From Maridesulfovibrio sp. (GTDB taxonomy: Bacteria; Desulfobacterota; Desulfovibrionia; Desulfovibrionales; Desulfovibrionaceae): DNA of 64,000 nt. Position 1 is the stretch's first letter, and every line of letters begins with the position of its first letter. Below the pieces are notes generated by a model. That model was not told where the DNA came from, ran no database searches, and was given only the letters and a program-made list of their open reading frames with translations. The stretch spans positions 341,001 to 405,000 of the forward strand of contig NZ_OY763930.1 in NCBI RefSeq assembly GCF_963667685.1. Reading direction: 5' to 3'. The position numbers were made by a program, and so were the translations under genes. This document shows positions 35,556 to 50,269 of this stretch, one piece after another.

Positions 35556-36029
35556 CTAGCTCAGCTTTTCAGCCAGCATACGCAGGTGCTTGCGCTCTTC
35601 GTCAATACATTCTTCCACGAATTTACGCTCAGTGTCAGGAACCATTCTTTTCAACTCGGTAAAAAGAAGGATGGTGTCCTTTTCAAAACGCATTGCAGCA
35701 CGCACAGCCTGCTCAAAATTGAAAGCCTCATCTTTGAAGGCCTCTGTATAATCGAAGTTGAATACGTCATGTGAATCCACAAGGGCCATAACGTACTGAG
35801 TATATTCTTCGTAATCACTTCCCGGAGGAATCTCGATAGCGCCAATACGGTCGCGCATATCACGGAAGAAAAGCTCATGCCTGGATTCTTCTTCAGCAAA
35901 AAATTCAAAAAATTCCTTTGCAGCGGGGTCTTTTGCTTCATCTGCAGCAAGAAGATAGAAAGCCTGTCCTTTCTGCTCAATACGCATGGCAAGTTCAGCC
36001 ACTTCGTTGGCACTAAAAAAAGTAACCAT
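35556..36029 (-). CDS. Ferritin-like diiron protein (rubrerythrin-type four-helix bundle)
   Basis: 157 residues, cytoplasmic. Two EExxH motifs, EEESRH (helix 2) and DEERKH (helix 4), together with Glu residues in helices 1 and 3 (IEQKGQAFY, RFEKDTILLF), form a diiron site. There is no C-terminal rubredoxin Cys4 domain, so it is not a full rubrerythrin. The family often handles peroxide or iron in anaerobes. AGGTG lies ahead of the ATG. It converges on flgE and diverges from the fusion gene at 36334. Confidence 0.85.
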   Translation of the reverse strand: MVTFFSANEVAELAMRIEQKGQAFYLLAADEAKDPAAKEFFEFFAEEESRHELFFRDMRDRIGAIEIPPGSDYEEYTQYVMALVDSHDVFNFDYTEAFKDEAFNFEQAVRAAMRFEKDTILLFTELKRMVPDTERKFVEECIDEERKHLRMLAEKLS

Positions 36030-36333: not shown

Positions 36334-37962
36334 ATGATCACAGATCAAAACGACGACATTGCCCTGCAACATTTTGTGGAACAGGCACTAGACAAGCTGG
36401 ACCAGATTGAAAATATACTCATCCAGATGGAGCGCAGCACATCTTCCTGCACAGCTTCCGTTGCACAGGTCTACGGAATACTGGTGTCATTAAAAGAAAG
36501 CGCTTCGTTACTGGAGCTGACCAGTATCAGCCTTGTAGCCGATAAGCTGGGCAAAGTTCTAGATCAGGTTTATAAAAATGAAATCGAACTTACCAACGAC
36601 CTGCTCAACATTATCATCGACTCCTTCGACAAACTTAATGAAATAGTCAGTAACGCTACACTAAGCGACGACTATGATATTCGCATCATCACATTACCTC
36701 TGGAGATGTATTCCAAACCCAGCGCAGTAAAGCCGGCCAAGGATGTAAAAACAGCACCAAAAGAGGAAACTCAACTGAAGAAGGCAGCAATGCCACAAAC
36801 GCAAGTGGATATGGATGATCCTGTGCCCGATCCTGAACCAGAGCCTGAACCAGAGCCAGAGCCAGAGCCGGAGCCGGATCAGGAACAGGAACAAATTCCA
36901 GCAAAAAGCAAAAACAGTAGACGACTTACACCGGCCGCTTTCCGCAAGAAGTACGGAATCAGGAAAGATATTGATCTGGCCAGCAATTCGAATCCATTAG
37001 GGATTTCCAAGGCAGTATCAAACGCTGTGGTAAACATAGCTAAGAACTTCTCTTCTTTTGAGCTAAGCTCTGACGACAGCCTCAAATACGAACTTGCAAA
37101 ACGGCACGAGGTTCCTGAAGAATGCGTGCTCACAGCCAGTGGAGCTGTCGAAATTCTGGACTTAGCCCTGCGTCTTTCTGCAATTCCCGGCGTAGACCAT
37201 GTGCTCAGCTATGAACATGGTCTGCCGGAATACAGCAGTGTTGCAGCTCTTTGCGGCATAGAACTACTGCGGCTGCCTCGTGGGCGCAACTTTTCGCCAC
37301 CGCTGGACCAGTTGGTGACAACTGCCAACAAAAATACAGCTGCTGTAATTATAACCAACCCGGATGTCCCCTCCGGATACGGTATTCCCGCGGAAGAACT
37401 GGCGACAATGGCCAACCTGCTTCCCGAACGTACTCTGCTTATAGTAGATGAGCGGTATATTGAATTTGCATGGCCTGAAGATGACTATTCAATGGTATAT
37501 TTTTTGGATAAAGCCCCCAATCTTGTAATTTTGCGTAGCTTTACCTGGTCATTCGGCTTAAAAGGTGTGCGCCTCGGCTATGCGCTTATGAATAGTGAAC
37601 GTGCGCAACAATTTGAGGAATCAAGGCTCCCGCACCCTATCAGTCCGCTGAATGTAGAGGCTGGATTGGCAGCCCTGACCCACAATGAATTCTACTATTC
37701 CACAATTGCCCTGATCATCAGGGGCCGTGAGCGTGTTCAGAATGGATTGAAAGAACTGGGGTGTACAGTATATCCAAGCCAGAGTAATTTCATAATGTTC
37801 AATGCCACCATTCCCGCAGAAGAGCTTCACGCCCGGATGCTGGAACACGGCTTTAAACTCAGAACACTTGAAAAGTTCGGCCTTCCGGATCTGCTAACTG
37901 TTTCCATCGGCAACAATTCAAGAAACCGTATGTTTCTGGCTGCTATGAAAAACATTTTATAA
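36334..37962 (+). CDS. CheA-P1-like domain fused to HisC-like aminotransferase fold, both lacking the key residue
   Basis: 542 residues from the ATG at 36334, with AAGGGGA 6 bases upstream. Residues 1-115 resemble a CheA P1/HPt helix bundle (ILVSLKESASLLEL, then LADKLGKVLD-like and ELTNDLLNIIIDSFDKL). The His of the H-x-L-K-G motif is Val51 and the Gly is Glu55. Residues about 130-188 form a Pro/Glu-rich linker. From about 190 there is a fold-type I aminotransferase like HisC (DLASNSNPLGIS). Asp372 and Tyr375 (VDERYIEF) and Arg413 are kept. The PLP Lys is Trp405 (SFTWSFGLKG), the PLP-contact Asn is Val345 (NPDVPSG) and the late substrate Arg is missing. Probably a non-catalytic signalling or ligand-binding protein (inference). 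Confidence 0.8.
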   Translation: MITDQNDDIALQHFVEQALDKLDQIENILIQMERSTSSCTASVAQVYGILVSLKESASLLELTSISLVADKLGKVLDQVYKNEIELTNDLLNIIIDSFDKLNEIVSNATLSDDYDIRIITLPLEMYSKPSAVKPAKDVKTAPKEETQLKKAAMPQTQVDMDDPVPDPEPEPEPEPEPEPEPDQEQEQIPAKSKNSRRLTPAAFRKKYGIRKDIDLASNSNPLGISKAVSNAVVNIAKNFSSFELSSDDSLKYELAKRHEVPEECVLTASGAVEILDLALRLSAIPGVDHVLSYEHGLPEYSSVAALCGIELLRLPRGRNFSPPLDQLVTTANKNTAAVIITNPDVPSGYGIPAEELATMANLLPERTLLIVDERYIEFAWPEDDYSMVYFLDKAPNLVILRSFTWSFGLKGVRLGYALMNSERAQQFEESRLPHPISPLNVEAGLAALTHNEFYYSTIALIIRGRERVQNGLKELGCTVYPSQSNFIMFNATIPAEELHARMLEHGFKLRTLEKFGLPDLLTVSIGNNSRNRMFLAAMKNIL

Positions 37963-37975
37963 CATGGAGGATTAA

Positions 37976-38296
37976 ATGATAAAAAAAATGATATTTTCCG
38001 GAATTATTCTGCTCGCGCTTAGTGGCTGTTCAAGCCATCCCACAAGCATGCAGGACGTAAATGTATACTGTCGTTCGCTTTCCAGTCCGGCGTTCTGCAA
38101 CGATCAGGACAGCGTTTGTGCCAAGTATTCTGAGACAATGCTCGCCCAGTATAAATCCGCAAAAGAATGCCGACAGGCCTGCGAAGGAGTCCGCATGAAA
38201 ACCGACTTAAATATGATACAGCAGGAATGCCGTGAAATAATGGAAAAAGTAGAAGGACGATGCACTGAATTCTGCAATGCCAACTACTCGGACTGA
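37976..38296 (+). CDS. Small Cys-rich lipoprotein
   Basis: 106 residues. A lipoprotein signal peptide (MIKKMIFSGIILLALSGC, lipobox LSGC) makes Cys18 the lipidated residue. The mature part carries about eight more cysteines in pairs (YCRS, FCND, VCAK, ECRQAC, ECRE, RCTEFC), suggesting disulfide bonds. The family is not recognised. It starts 13 bases after the fusion gene with GGAGG before the ATG, so both are surely co-transcribed. Asp at +2 is absent (SS follows), so outer-membrane delivery is likely. Confidence 0.8.
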   Translation: MIKKMIFSGIILLALSGCSSHPTSMQDVNVYCRSLSSPAFCNDQDSVCAKYSETMLAQYKSAKECRQACEGVRMKTDLNMIQQECREIMEKVEGRCTEFCNANYSD

Positions 38297-38432: not shown

Positions 38433-40499
38433 ATGTTGAAACGGTTCACTGTCGGACAAAAAATATTCTGTAGCTTTAGTATAATATTTATCCTTTTTGG
38501 AATCGTCAGCGTCGAGTCCTTGATAGCGCTGCATAAATCATCTTCCGGTTTCACTGACTACCGCTACTTCGCCAATGATTCAAACCTGATCGGTAAAATT
38601 CAAGCAGGAATCCTCCAAAGCCGCACATATGTTAAAGATTTCATCATCACCGGCGACAACAAATACAGTCGCCAGTACAATGAAACCGCACATAGTATTT
38701 TTCCGCTTCTAGCGACTGCGGCGGCTGAAATAAACTCCACTGACCGCAACAAGATTATCCATGAAATCGACAGCCTGCTGAATGAGTATGACGCAAGTTT
38801 TTCCAAAGTAGCCAGTGTGCAAAAGGAGCGAGACCGGATACTTGACACTGTCATCCTTCCCGCCGGTTCTCTGATGGAGCAGAATTTTGAACACATTATC
38901 GATAATCTCAAGAAAGTAAAAAACAATTCACAAGCCCTGTATTACTGCGCCAAAGGCGTCCGCCACCTGATTCTGGCCAGACTTTTTAACACAAAATATC
39001 TGGACAGCAGCCTTGATTTGCACAGAGACAAAGCCATCAAAGAGATGGAAATGGTCAACGAGAATTTAAGCACCCTCGCGACATTGCTGAAGAACGGTAA
39101 TCTTGATCTGCTCAAGGATATCGGAAATGCAGCAAAAGAATATACGAATTCTTTCAAGGAAGTTATCACTCTTACCGAAACCCGTGACAAACTTATCAAT
39201 AACGAACTTGACGTTATTGGACCGCAAATGAGTGACCTTATAGATAAGGCAAAGCTTTCCGTCATTGCTGATCAGAGCATACTCGGTCCGACTCTACAGG
39301 CCCGCAATGACCGTGCCATCATGAGCACTTACATTTTCGGGATCATCGCATTCCTGCTGGGTACAGCTGCGGTATTCATTGTAGGCCGGGATATAACATT
39401 ACCCCTGCGTAAAGTGGTGGCGGCAGCCTATCGCATTGCCGAAGGAGACATGACGCAGGAAATCAAGGGAACGGACCGCAAAGATGAGCTAGGTTCACTG
39501 GCACGGGCATTCAATAAAATGAATGATTCACTTATCGAAATGGCCGGAGCTATGGAACGGGTTGCAAATTCAGACCTTACCGTCGAAGTTGAAGCCCGCT
39601 CGGAGAACGACACAATAGGCAAGGCTCTCACAGTTATGCTTGAAAACCTAAAAGGTGATAACCTCAAAATTCACGAAGCAGTGCGCACTCTGTCCTCATC
39701 CCTAAGCCAGATTTCAGCAGCTTCTGCTGAACTGACAGCCAGTGCAGCTGAAACTGCCAGCGCAGTGGCAGAGACAAATGCCACAGTTGAAGAAGTCAAG
39801 CAGACCGCTCACCTCTCTAATGAAAAATCAAGACAGGTTGCCGACGTAGCCCGCAAGGCGGTATCAACATCCCAGCAGGGCAGAAAAGCTGCGGATGAGG
39901 CTTCTTCCGGAATGAAGGAAATCCGCATGCAGATGGATACTATAGCACAGTCCATCGTCAAACTGTCCGAACAGTCACAGCATATCGGTGATATCATTTA
40001 TGTAGTAAACGACCTTGCCGACCAGTCCAATATTCTGGCTGTTAACGCATCCATAGAAGCTTCAAAAGCAGGAATAGAAGGACGAGGTTTCACCGTGGTC
40101 GCCCGTGAAATCCGAAATCTATCAGACCAGTCCAAACAATCTGTCGCGCAGATCCAGTCCATTCTCGCTGACATCCAGAAAGCAACCAGCTCCGCTGTTA
40201 TGATTACCGAACAGGGCGGTAAGGCCGTCGAAACTGGTGCCAATCTCTCAGCGCAGACAGGTGAGGCAATTCTCAACCTCAGTACCGTCATCAACCAGTC
40301 AGCCCAGTCTTCAGCCCAGATAGCAGCTTCCAGTCAGGAACAGCTGGCAGGACTTGATCAGGTTGCGGTAGCTCTCGGTTCGATCAAGCAGGCAGGTGAA
40401 CAGAACCTTGAAAGCTCACGCCAACTGGAAGAGGCTGTAAAAGATCTGGACCAACAGGCCAGGTCTCTCAAAGACATGATGGACAGATTTAAACTCTAG
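38433..40499 (+). CDS. Methyl-accepting chemotaxis protein with helical bimodular (HBM-type) sensor
   Basis: 688 residues. TM1 spans about 11-32. The long periplasmic domain (about 33-288) is all-helical, as in HBM sensors of the McpS type that bind organic acids. TM2 (about 292-312, IFGIIAFLLGTAAVFIVG) is followed by HAMP and a second HAMP-like segment, then the signalling hairpin. The hairpin tip is DLADQSNILAVNASIEAS, close to the canonical D-I-A-x-Q-T-N-L-L-A-L-N-A-A-I-E-A. The ligand is unknown. It follows the lipoprotein gene by 136 bases and has its own terminator. Confidence 0.92.
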   Translation: MLKRFTVGQKIFCSFSIIFILFGIVSVESLIALHKSSSGFTDYRYFANDSNLIGKIQAGILQSRTYVKDFIITGDNKYSRQYNETAHSIFPLLATAAAEINSTDRNKIIHEIDSLLNEYDASFSKVASVQKERDRILDTVILPAGSLMEQNFEHIIDNLKKVKNNSQALYYCAKGVRHLILARLFNTKYLDSSLDLHRDKAIKEMEMVNENLSTLATLLKNGNLDLLKDIGNAAKEYTNSFKEVITLTETRDKLINNELDVIGPQMSDLIDKAKLSVIADQSILGPTLQARNDRAIMSTYIFGIIAFLLGTAAVFIVGRDITLPLRKVVAAAYRIAEGDMTQEIKGTDRKDELGSLARAFNKMNDSLIEMAGAMERVANSDLTVEVEARSENDTIGKALTVMLENLKGDNLKIHEAVRTLSSSLSQISAASAELTASAAETASAVAETNATVEEVKQTAHLSNEKSRQVADVARKAVSTSQQGRKAADEASSGMKEIRMQMDTIAQSIVKLSEQSQHIGDIIYVVNDLADQSNILAVNASIEASKAGIEGRGFTVVAREIRNLSDQSKQSVAQIQSILADIQKATSSAVMITEQGGKAVETGANLSAQTGEAILNLSTVINQSAQSSAQIAASSQEQLAGLDQVAVALGSIKQAGEQNLESSRQLEEAVKDLDQQARSLKDMMDRFKL

Positions 40500-48688: not shown

Positions 48689-50269
48689 TTACTTAGAAAC
48701 TGACAACTTTTTGGCAATTTGCTCATCGCTCTGCTCACCTATACCGAAACGCATGAAAAGATCATTAAGCTTGCCACGAATATCTTTGGTAGCTTTGGCA
48801 ACAGCCTGTAAACTGATGAAGATCAGAAATTCGACCTTGTAATCGCCTTTTTCAAACAAACGCAAAATAGCGGTAGCCAGTTCTTTTTCAAGGGCCAGCA
48901 ATTGCATTTCTTTAACCAGTTCCTGAACTGTGTTGTGCTTGAATATAAGCCAATCGCTGTTTGTTGAGTCCTTCATCCACATACGGGCCATACGGATTCT
49001 GGTCATACCTATTTCTTTCAGATCCTGAACATCCTTGGATAAGGCTCTTCTACGCTTAAGCACCCGCAGCTGCATCTTGCTTTCCTCTCCCTGCATCTTG
49101 ACCTTCAGCAGAGAAGAAAACTTTACTTCTGTAAGATAAACAAACAACTTATCAAGAGAATCAACATCAAACCTGCGTAAAAAAACTGTCAGAACTTTTT
49201 CGTCACGCTGGGTAAAAGTTTTCAAGCCCTGCAAAAACTCACGAACAACAATATCAAGAGTGATGCTAACCCCGATAGCGCATGCACTGATCTGATCTTG
49301 CGCAAACTGCATCTGCCGGGCCATTTCAGCTTCTTCTTCGGTGCTGTCTGCGGAATAGGCATTCTTCCTAAGCGCCTCCATGGCATTATCGTAATCCTGC
49401 TTGAATTTAGCTGTCGCCGGATCAATACAGACTATCCGCGCTATACGTTCAACCACATCATTGCTTATCGGGTCTTCGTCATGCACGAGCACCCTGCTTT
49501 CCTGCAGGGAATTGTAAGTCATTTTTAAAATTTCTGCGGACTCTTCATCCATGCCGACCTGTTCAAAGGCACTCTGTATTCTGGTTTTATCTATTACCGG
49601 AATATCTGCAGCAAAACGCTTAATAACATCATCAAATGGGAAACGCAGAATCAGATATTTATTATCTCTGGTGAGAGTATAACTTTCATTGGAAATTATA
49701 TCCTTAAGAGATGTTTCCACTTCATGGGTAATGAATTGATCGATTAGAGCCTGCCAGAAGTTCTTATCCAACTCGAAATCTTCCAGCAGGGTATTATACT
49801 TCTTCAGGGCCGGTTCCCCAAGATGACGAAGAGTTACTTCTTCAAAGTTGTCGGAAATAAGGCAGGAAGCGTAAACCACACCTTGAACGGTCTTTATCAG
49901 CAGAGTTTCGGCGTTAATAATACGTGATCTGATGCTTTCCAGAACATCTTTATCTTTACCGTCTTTAAGCTTGCTGAATCTACCTATCATGAGGATAAAT
50001 TCACTTAGAATTTTCTTGATAAATTCATGGGCAGGCAAGTCAATCGAGCGATGGCACAACAGAGCAATAATTCCACTCTGCTGTTTTTCCAGCAGTGGAA
50101 ACTCATTAATACGGTTGTTATTATACTTAATAAATTCTAAAAAGACTTCACGCTCAAGGACTTCGCGCAGAGTATTGCGCTCCTTAAGCCTCATTAGAAC
50201 TTTCAAGTAAAATTCTATCCGCTTATCTTTATCGGGAAGCTGTTCGCCATCCCGGGACACTTCACTCAT
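48689..50269 (-). CDS. Conserved-looking hypothetical protein, all-helical, 526 residues
   Basis: Not recognised. The chain is predominantly charged amphipathic helix with no signal peptide, membrane segment or Cys-rich motif. One short beta-like block (YTLTRDNKYLILRFPFDDVIKRFAADIP) lies near residue 215. The C-terminal third is basic with RVLKRRRALSKDVQDLKEIGMTRIRMARMW. Codon use and base composition look like the neighbours, so it is probably a resident lineage gene rather than recent transfer. It converges with purU and is divergent from the zinc-ribbon gene. A cytoplasmic scaffold or regulatory role is possible only as a guess. Confidence 0.75.
   Translation of the reverse strand: MSEVSRDGEQLPDKDKRIEFYLKVLMRLKERNTLREVLEREVFLEFIKYNNNRINEFPLLEKQQSGIIALLCHRSIDLPAHEFIKKILSEFILMIGRFSKLKDGKDKDVLESIRSRIINAETLLIKTVQGVVYASCLISDNFEEVTLRHLGEPALKKYNTLLEDFELDKNFWQALIDQFITHEVETSLKDIISNESYTLTRDNKYLILRFPFDDVIKRFAADIPVIDKTRIQSAFEQVGMDEESAEILKMTYNSLQESRVLVHDEDPISNDVVERIARIVCIDPATAKFKQDYDNAMEALRKNAYSADSTEEEAEMARQMQFAQDQISACAIGVSITLDIVVREFLQGLKTFTQRDEKVLTVFLRRFDVDSLDKLFVYLTEVKFSSLLKVKMQGEESKMQLRVLKRRRALSKDVQDLKEIGMTRIRMARMWMKDSTNSDWLIFKHNTVQELVKEMQLLALEKELATAILRLFEKGDYKVEFLIFISLQAVAKATKDIRGKLNDLFMRFGIGEQSDEQIAKKLSVSK

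Follow-up and report, generated by a model that had tools for sequence, protein, structure and literature searches.

The locus studied here raises the question of what two catalytic domains joined in one chain can still do once each has lost the residues of its chemistry. The gene lies in the window, the 64,000-nt stretch of Maridesulfovibrio sp. DNA that was analysed, and codes in a frame without internal stops for a protein of 542 residues, which a sequence-only reading had interpreted as a signalling protein built from a CheA-P1-like and a HisC-like domain, both inactive. As judged from sequence, the protein is a fusion of an HPt-type domain and an aminotransferase domain, both without their catalytic residues (Table 1), and we found it in each of the 17 genomes of its genus that were compared. 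The mechanical ORF opens at TTG 36232; ATG 36334 is nevertheless supported as the start, since all 17 aligned orthologues have M1 and their upstream regions, when aligned, show a G-rich stretch ahead of this codon.

Table 1. Coordinates of the fusion gene, its domains and key codons, and its conserved neighbours in the window.
Feature	Position	Strand	Evidence
HPt-like / HisC-like fusion gene	36334..37962	+	Pfam, NCBIfam and PDB matches; orthologues in 17/17 genus genomes
HPt (CheA-P1-type) domain, residues 8-125, phospho-His substituted	36355..36708	+	Profile/Pfam; residue 51 = V/I/L/F/T in 17/17
Val51 GTG codon, at phospho-accepting His position	36484..36486	+	17-row alignment, CheA P1 profile
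Pro/Glu-rich variable linker, residues 129-201	36718..36936	+	42-74 aa across 17 orthologues
HisC-like pseudo-aminotransferase domain, residues 203-542	36940..37959	+	Pfam, NCBIfam, PDB, HisC alignment
Degenerate PLP-phosphate loop, residues 268-273 = ASGAVE	37135..37152	+	GNGSDE in 39/40 genuine HisC
Val345 codon, at catalytic Asn position	37366..37368	+	HisC alignment
Asp372 (kept) to Arg374	37447..37455	+	Position 374 = Ala in 40/40 genuine HisC
Trp405 TGG codon, at PLP Schiff-base Lys position	37546..37548	+	HisC alignment
Thr522 codon, at substrate Arg position	37897..37899	+	HisC alignment
Small cysteine-rich lipoprotein-like gene	37976..38296	+	13 nt downstream of fusion; lipobox-type Cys plus eight further Cys
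Methyl-accepting chemotaxis protein (MCP), conserved neighbour	38433..40499	+	Pfam, compared stretches
Rubrerythrin-like gene, divergent conserved neighbour	35556..36029	-	Pfam, compared stretches

An HPt-type domain without its phospho-accepting histidine

Pfam Hpt matched the whole window protein with an E-value of 0.12 and its N-terminal piece alone with 0.0081, a piece for which the unrelated family Ribosomal_S30AE scored better (0.0042) and which remained below the gathering cut-off of Pfam Hpt (PF01627; 16.8 vs 24.6 bits). At a threshold of 0.01, Pfam Hpt was absent from two orthologues scanned at full length. Across the family, Pfam Hpt was found at E≤1 in 14 of the 17 orthologue N-terminal pieces, with a best value of 2.9e-5, and Ribosomal_S30AE in four of the 17. 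A profile built from the 17 rows found the solved CheA P1 domains 2ld6 (2.9e-7), 1tqg (3.5e-7) and 1i5n (6.3e-4), and also matched the designed helical bundles 6ff6 (5e-7), 6fes (2.4e-5) and 2lch (3e-4). On these profile comparisons, we consider the assignment as HPt weak for the single sequence and sound for the family. In a phylogenetic tree, the HPt domain of the fusion grouped with single-domain HPts, apart from the three HPt modules of the CheA encoded by its own genome (support 93/99, unstarred, with long-branch warnings); the HPt rows of this tree were chosen by a His-containing pattern, so that their His carries no information. The earlier description of the domain as CheA-P1-like is thereby corrected, in that the tree places it nearer to single-domain HPts than to the P1 of its own CheA.

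The position of the phospho-accepting His is occupied by Val51 in the window protein, as previously read, and by V, I, L, F or T, never His, across all 17 genus fusions. The A-H-x-x-E helix motif is altered as well, with D70 and G73 in the window protein. Lys54, three residues past the lost His, is invariant in the 17 fusions, and so is Glu55. The replacement of the motif Gly by Glu55 had been taken as a further sign of inactivity, a view that we abandon because nine single-domain HPts have Ala at the equivalent position and yet retain their His (H-S-[VI]-K-A); Glu55 is thus not diagnostic. The motif H-S-[IV]-K was present in all 23 non-genus HPt frames examined. The HPt domain also diverges faster than its partner, with a mean identity of 0.658 against 0.758 (fusion aminotransferase domain) and 0.779.

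The long CheA of the window's genome (G000:C1, about 184700-186150, minus strand) carries three HPt modules, the third of which has V-S-I-Q-N in place of the H-[SN]-L-K-G of the other two. Val occupies the His position of this third module in all 17 genus genomes, making it a second conserved pseudo-HPt, a pattern that would point to dead phosphate acceptors as a standing feature of chemosensory wiring in the genus.

A HisC-like domain without the PLP lysine

Homology of the C-terminal half to aminotransferases was strong, with matches to Pfam Aminotran_1_2 (6e-36) and to the HisC structure 3get (4.6e-32). The NCBIfam model hisC (TIGR01141) gave 207.3 bits over residues 204-541, below its cut-off of 276.55, which was used without a control score from a genuine HisC. 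For comparison, we aligned the fusions with 40 genuine HisC proteins of the same order, hand-picked from the retrieved loci as a subset of the HisC matches, to which the fusion is 35.6-42.6% identical.

The alignment bore out the proposed losses. At position 405, all 17 fusions have Trp and all 40 HisC the PLP-binding Lys. At position 345, the Asn of 40/40 HisC is replaced by V, I, M or E (17/17), and at position 522 the late substrate Arg of 40/40 HisC by Thr or Lys (17/17), so that the losses read in the window protein at Val345 and at the late Arg (Thr522) extend to all 17 genus fusions. The recurrence of Trp405 in the genes of 17 species excludes chance and, for the TGG codon, the sequencing error that had been raised as a reason for doubt; the orthologues, checked for a retained Lys or His, keep the losses in 17/17. 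Gly268 and Asp272 of the phosphate loop are likewise lost from all 17 fusions. The three cofactor-pocket residues previously listed as kept fared unevenly: Asp372 is retained in 17/17, but Tyr375, present in the window protein, is replaced by Ser, Ala or Cys in 14/17, and Arg413 is lost in 2/17. Position 374 is Arg or Lys in every fusion and Ala in every genuine HisC of the set; in aspartate aminotransferase this Ala, two residues after the Asp, packs on the PLP ring.

Of 64 columns invariant among the 40 HisC, 25 are kept in all 17 fusions and 21 have residues absent from all 17. The latter include Tyr242, at what we take to be the position of the Tyr that reaches the PLP phosphate of the neighbouring subunit. 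Other positions have become fixed in the fusions: H450, where 40/40 HisC have Asp, and Y454, Y455, R467 and N528, which are variable in HisC. Because Tyr375 is mostly lost, the phosphate loop is gone and Ala374 has given way to Arg or Lys, a PLP-like cofactor pocket appears unlikely in the fusion. The former PLP site is probably filled, given that a basic side chain takes the place of the presumed ring contact in all 17 proteins.

The dead aminotransferase domain is under purifying selection

Selection was analysed in 13 of the 17 species, among which five pairs were usable (dS<1.6 in the dead domain); these pairs share species, and the remaining ones were saturated. Over the five pairs, omega ranged from 0.056 to 0.109 for the fusion aminotransferase domain and from 0.051 to 0.071 for genuine HisC. 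Such low values establish that the domain is under purifying selection and is not decaying. Its constraint is almost that of the living HisC and somewhat weaker, since omega was higher in the fusion domain in all five pairs. Mean dN over the 78 pairs of the 13 species was 0.173 for the fusion domain vs 0.152 for HisC, with the fusion domain having the lower dN in 19 of the 78.

A second, separate HisC-type match was found in all 17 genus genomes, and the 13 examined, including that of the window's genome, retain the Lys. The fusion therefore seems dispensable for histidine synthesis. In the aminotransferase tree, thinned to nine of the 17 genus fusions, the fusions separated from the genuine HisC of the genus, each group forming its own clade (100/100 each), the fusions on a long stem.

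Distribution of the fusion and a similar protein in a second genus

In a per-genome tally that covered all 288 genomes of the family, 269 had a match; full-length matches occurred only in the 17 genus members and in one genome of a second genus, and the best match outside these 18 reached 8.4e-124. Four other family genomes (G029, G084, G235 and G236) had two HisC-type matches each. No further fusion was found in 348 genomes of the order (family included) or in 395 of the phylum under strict cut-offs (1e-105 and 1e-85, with at most four and three candidates per genome), which a much diverged fusion could escape. A mobile origin was rejected, as matches to phage and plasmid records all fell short of 80% coverage of the protein; there were 22 phage and 468 plasmid records with matches, and those among the matches listed (five and eight) covered the aminotransferase part only. 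A role in defence was discarded as well, since no PADLOC family matched.

The second genus, represented by one genome (G062), codes for a 515-residue fusion of similar plan (L098:6363-7907, minus strand), with Pfam matches to Hpt (8.7e-4, under the cut-off) and to the aminotransferase family (2.6e-42). It carries Asp at the HPt His position, and in its aminotransferase part Lys405 is replaced by Arg, Asn345 by Glu, Tyr375 by Leu and Ala374 by Thr; the substrate Arg is kept. The gene 120 nt downstream (L098:3942-6239, minus strand) codes for a hybrid histidine kinase of GAF-PAS type that ends in a receiver domain. The two fusions may share one origin: a one-clade topology was rejected neither for the aminotransferase part (p-AU 0.465) nor for the HPt part (p-AU 0.416), the genus HPt profile matched the second-genus HPt part (hhalign, 95.4%), and position 17, which is Glu or Asp in 21 of the remaining 22 HPt rows of the alignment, is Gln in both. 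However, bootstrapping joined the two in only 46% and 44% of trees, long branches lead to the second-genus protein, and its aminotransferase part is closer to the HisC of its own genome (46% identity) than to the window fusion (34% over the whole protein).

Gene neighbourhood

The order fusion, cysteine-rich lipoprotein gene, MCP gene, with the divergent rubrerythrin gene, is kept in all six other genus stretches compared. The lipoprotein-like gene is probably on the same transcript as the fusion, and the MCP gene begins 136 nt past it. Five of the six stretches also contain hslV, hslU, TPR and flgE, and five contain livK; the former set was not found in L106 and livK not in L107, in both of which the fusion, lipoprotein and MCP genes remain together. 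In a sample of 59 genomes, the sensor part of the MCP had matches at 47-50% identity only in those two that are further members of the genus; identity did not exceed 34% in the rest. We dismissed the lipoprotein as an exclusive partner of the fusion, since 34 of 119 genomes of the family have relatives of it (E≤0.01) and only seven of these genomes belong to the genus, distant relatives being present also where the fusion is not. A link to the flagellar regulon through sigma-28 or sigma-54 was also rejected, as simple patterns revealed no such promoter in the 17 upstream regions. Elsewhere in the window, a 526-aa frame (48689-50269, minus strand) matched no Pfam family at E≤1e-4.

A tentative role as adaptor or decoy

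Since both domains have lost their catalytic residues, the fusion probably serves in binding or regulation and not as an enzyme. We tentatively favour, with somewhat less than even confidence, a non-catalytic adaptor, acting as a decoy or sink in a phosphorelay or chemosensory pathway, where the one link to chemotaxis proteins is the gene neighbourhood. The HisC-like half would retain its fold, probably as a dimer that does not bind PLP, and this dimer would present the HPt-like domains on flexible linkers. Each HPt-like domain could dock on a receiver or kinase domain without being able to carry phosphate, and would thereby compete with or titrate true HPt or P1 domains. The presence of the fusion in 17/17 genus genomes, its fixed losses, the low omega, the homology to CheA P1 and the invariant Lys54 argue for such an adaptor. 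The signalling genes nearby, the MCP gene in 6/6 other genus stretches and the hybrid histidine kinase gene in the second genus, also appear to count in its favour, as do the separate HisC of these genomes and the precedent of the plant pseudo-HPt AHP6. Against it, neighbourhood is weak evidence and the MCP gene lies beyond the lipoprotein gene, while the close downstream partner is of lipoprotein type, so that an HPt in the cytoplasm would have no contact with its product. If constraint on the HPt domain came chiefly from docking, its fast evolution would be surprising. Simple patterns detected no promoter of sigma-28 or sigma-54 type upstream of the 17 genes, and the dead domain is somewhat less constrained than HisC.

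The adaptor could take a more specific form, which we hold to be doubtful, as a kind of pseudo-CheA in which a dead HisC dimer offers dead P1/HPt decoys and the PLP site is closed by the protein's own residues. A basic residue near the kept Asp372 would then stand in for the ring nitrogen of PLP. Both groups have one such residue in the former cofactor site, Arg/Lys374 in the genus fusions and Arg405 in that of the second genus, which suggests an internal replacement of the cofactor.

Alternatively, the emptied HisC pocket might bind a small molecule without PLP chemistry, its state being relayed by the HPt-like domain. We regard such a ligand sensor as rather unlikely. MocR regulators offer a parallel in the use of an aminotransferase-like domain for sensing (PMC5320631), and the retention of Asp372 together with the fixation of Arg/Lys374 and Trp405 in 17/17 indicates that the place of the pocket is still under selection. 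However, many of the residues with which HisC holds its ligands are gone (Gly268/Asp272, Asn345 and Arg522 in 17/17, Tyr375 in 14/17), and the pocket may have become occupied by Arg/Lys374 and Trp405.

It is improbable that the fusion serves as a partner of genuine HisC, regulating or stabilising it in a mixed dimer. Pseudoenzyme subunits of this kind include antizyme inhibitor and SPTLC1, the fusion occurs together with a HisC-type match in 17/17 genus genomes, and the 25 of 64 HisC-invariant columns kept throughout would suit such a pairing. Against this stand the 21 HisC-invariant residues missing from every fusion, Tyr242 included, the separate clades of the fusions (on their long stem) and of the genus's own HisC, and the neighbours examined, which are protease, flagellar, chemotaxis and transport genes. 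A new enzyme with different, PLP-free chemistry is more improbable still: the novel residues fixed at positions 450, 454, 455, 467 and 528 could be read that way, but no catalytic set is recognisable and the second-genus fusion differs at key positions, with Arg for K405, Thr for A374 and Glu for N345. Finally, a decaying pseudogene or an assembly or sequencing artefact, which the two broken active sites might suggest, is refuted by intact frames with the same key substitutions in 17/17, low omega and a gene order kept in six other stretches.

Comparison with known systems

The fusion is homologous to HisC (TIGR01141, 3get) over residues 204-541 and belongs by sequence to aminotransferase class I/II. 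It differs from HisC in lacking the Lys, the Asn, the phosphate-loop residues and the substrate Arg, in its sub-cut-off score, and in its attached HPt-like domain. With single-domain HPts and CheA P1 domains (PF01627, 2ld6, 1tqg), it shares an HPt-type profile and the Lys after the His position; unlike them, it has no phospho-His in 17/17 and its A-H-x-x-E motif is changed. As in the CheA of its own genome, a P1-like domain and a Pro/Glu-rich linker precede a larger C-terminal part, and the proposed arrangement would be reminiscent of the P1 domains that hang on linkers from the CheA dimer. In contrast to CheA, no kinase (HATPase), P3 or CheW-like domain was found in the fusion by Pfam scan. 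MocR/GntR regulators also reuse an aminotransferase-like domain in regulation, as a sensory domain (PMC5320631). MocR proteins are PLP binders equipped with a DNA-binding domain, whereas the fusion has an HPt-like domain and no PLP Lys, and a Pfam scan of it found no DNA-binding wHTH domain. By these sequence comparisons, the fusion is neither a HisC, an active HPt, a CheA nor a MocR protein, and its automatic annotation would be corrected accordingly, as Pfam labels it an aminotransferase. The HPt-aminotransferase architecture met no description in our literature search, whose coverage took in a minority of subscription journals.

Two unrelated catalytic folds have thus been retired in one chain under a constraint still close to that of the living enzyme, which provides a test case for an aminotransferase pocket rebuilt without PLP. 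By analogy, the fusion would work most like a pseudo-HPt such as AHP6, which belongs to the plant cytokinin pathway and is not known to have an aminotransferase domain. Both proteins lack the phospho-His. Across the genus, the fusion offers a clean case for testing if signalling in bacteria can be steered by a dead HPt, as reported for AHP6, for which competition with true HPts has been described (PMC7402358); competition by the fusion is proposed here by analogy. Pseudoenzyme adaptors are already known as a kind, and among them the joining of an HPt to an aminotransferase appears to be a new architecture.
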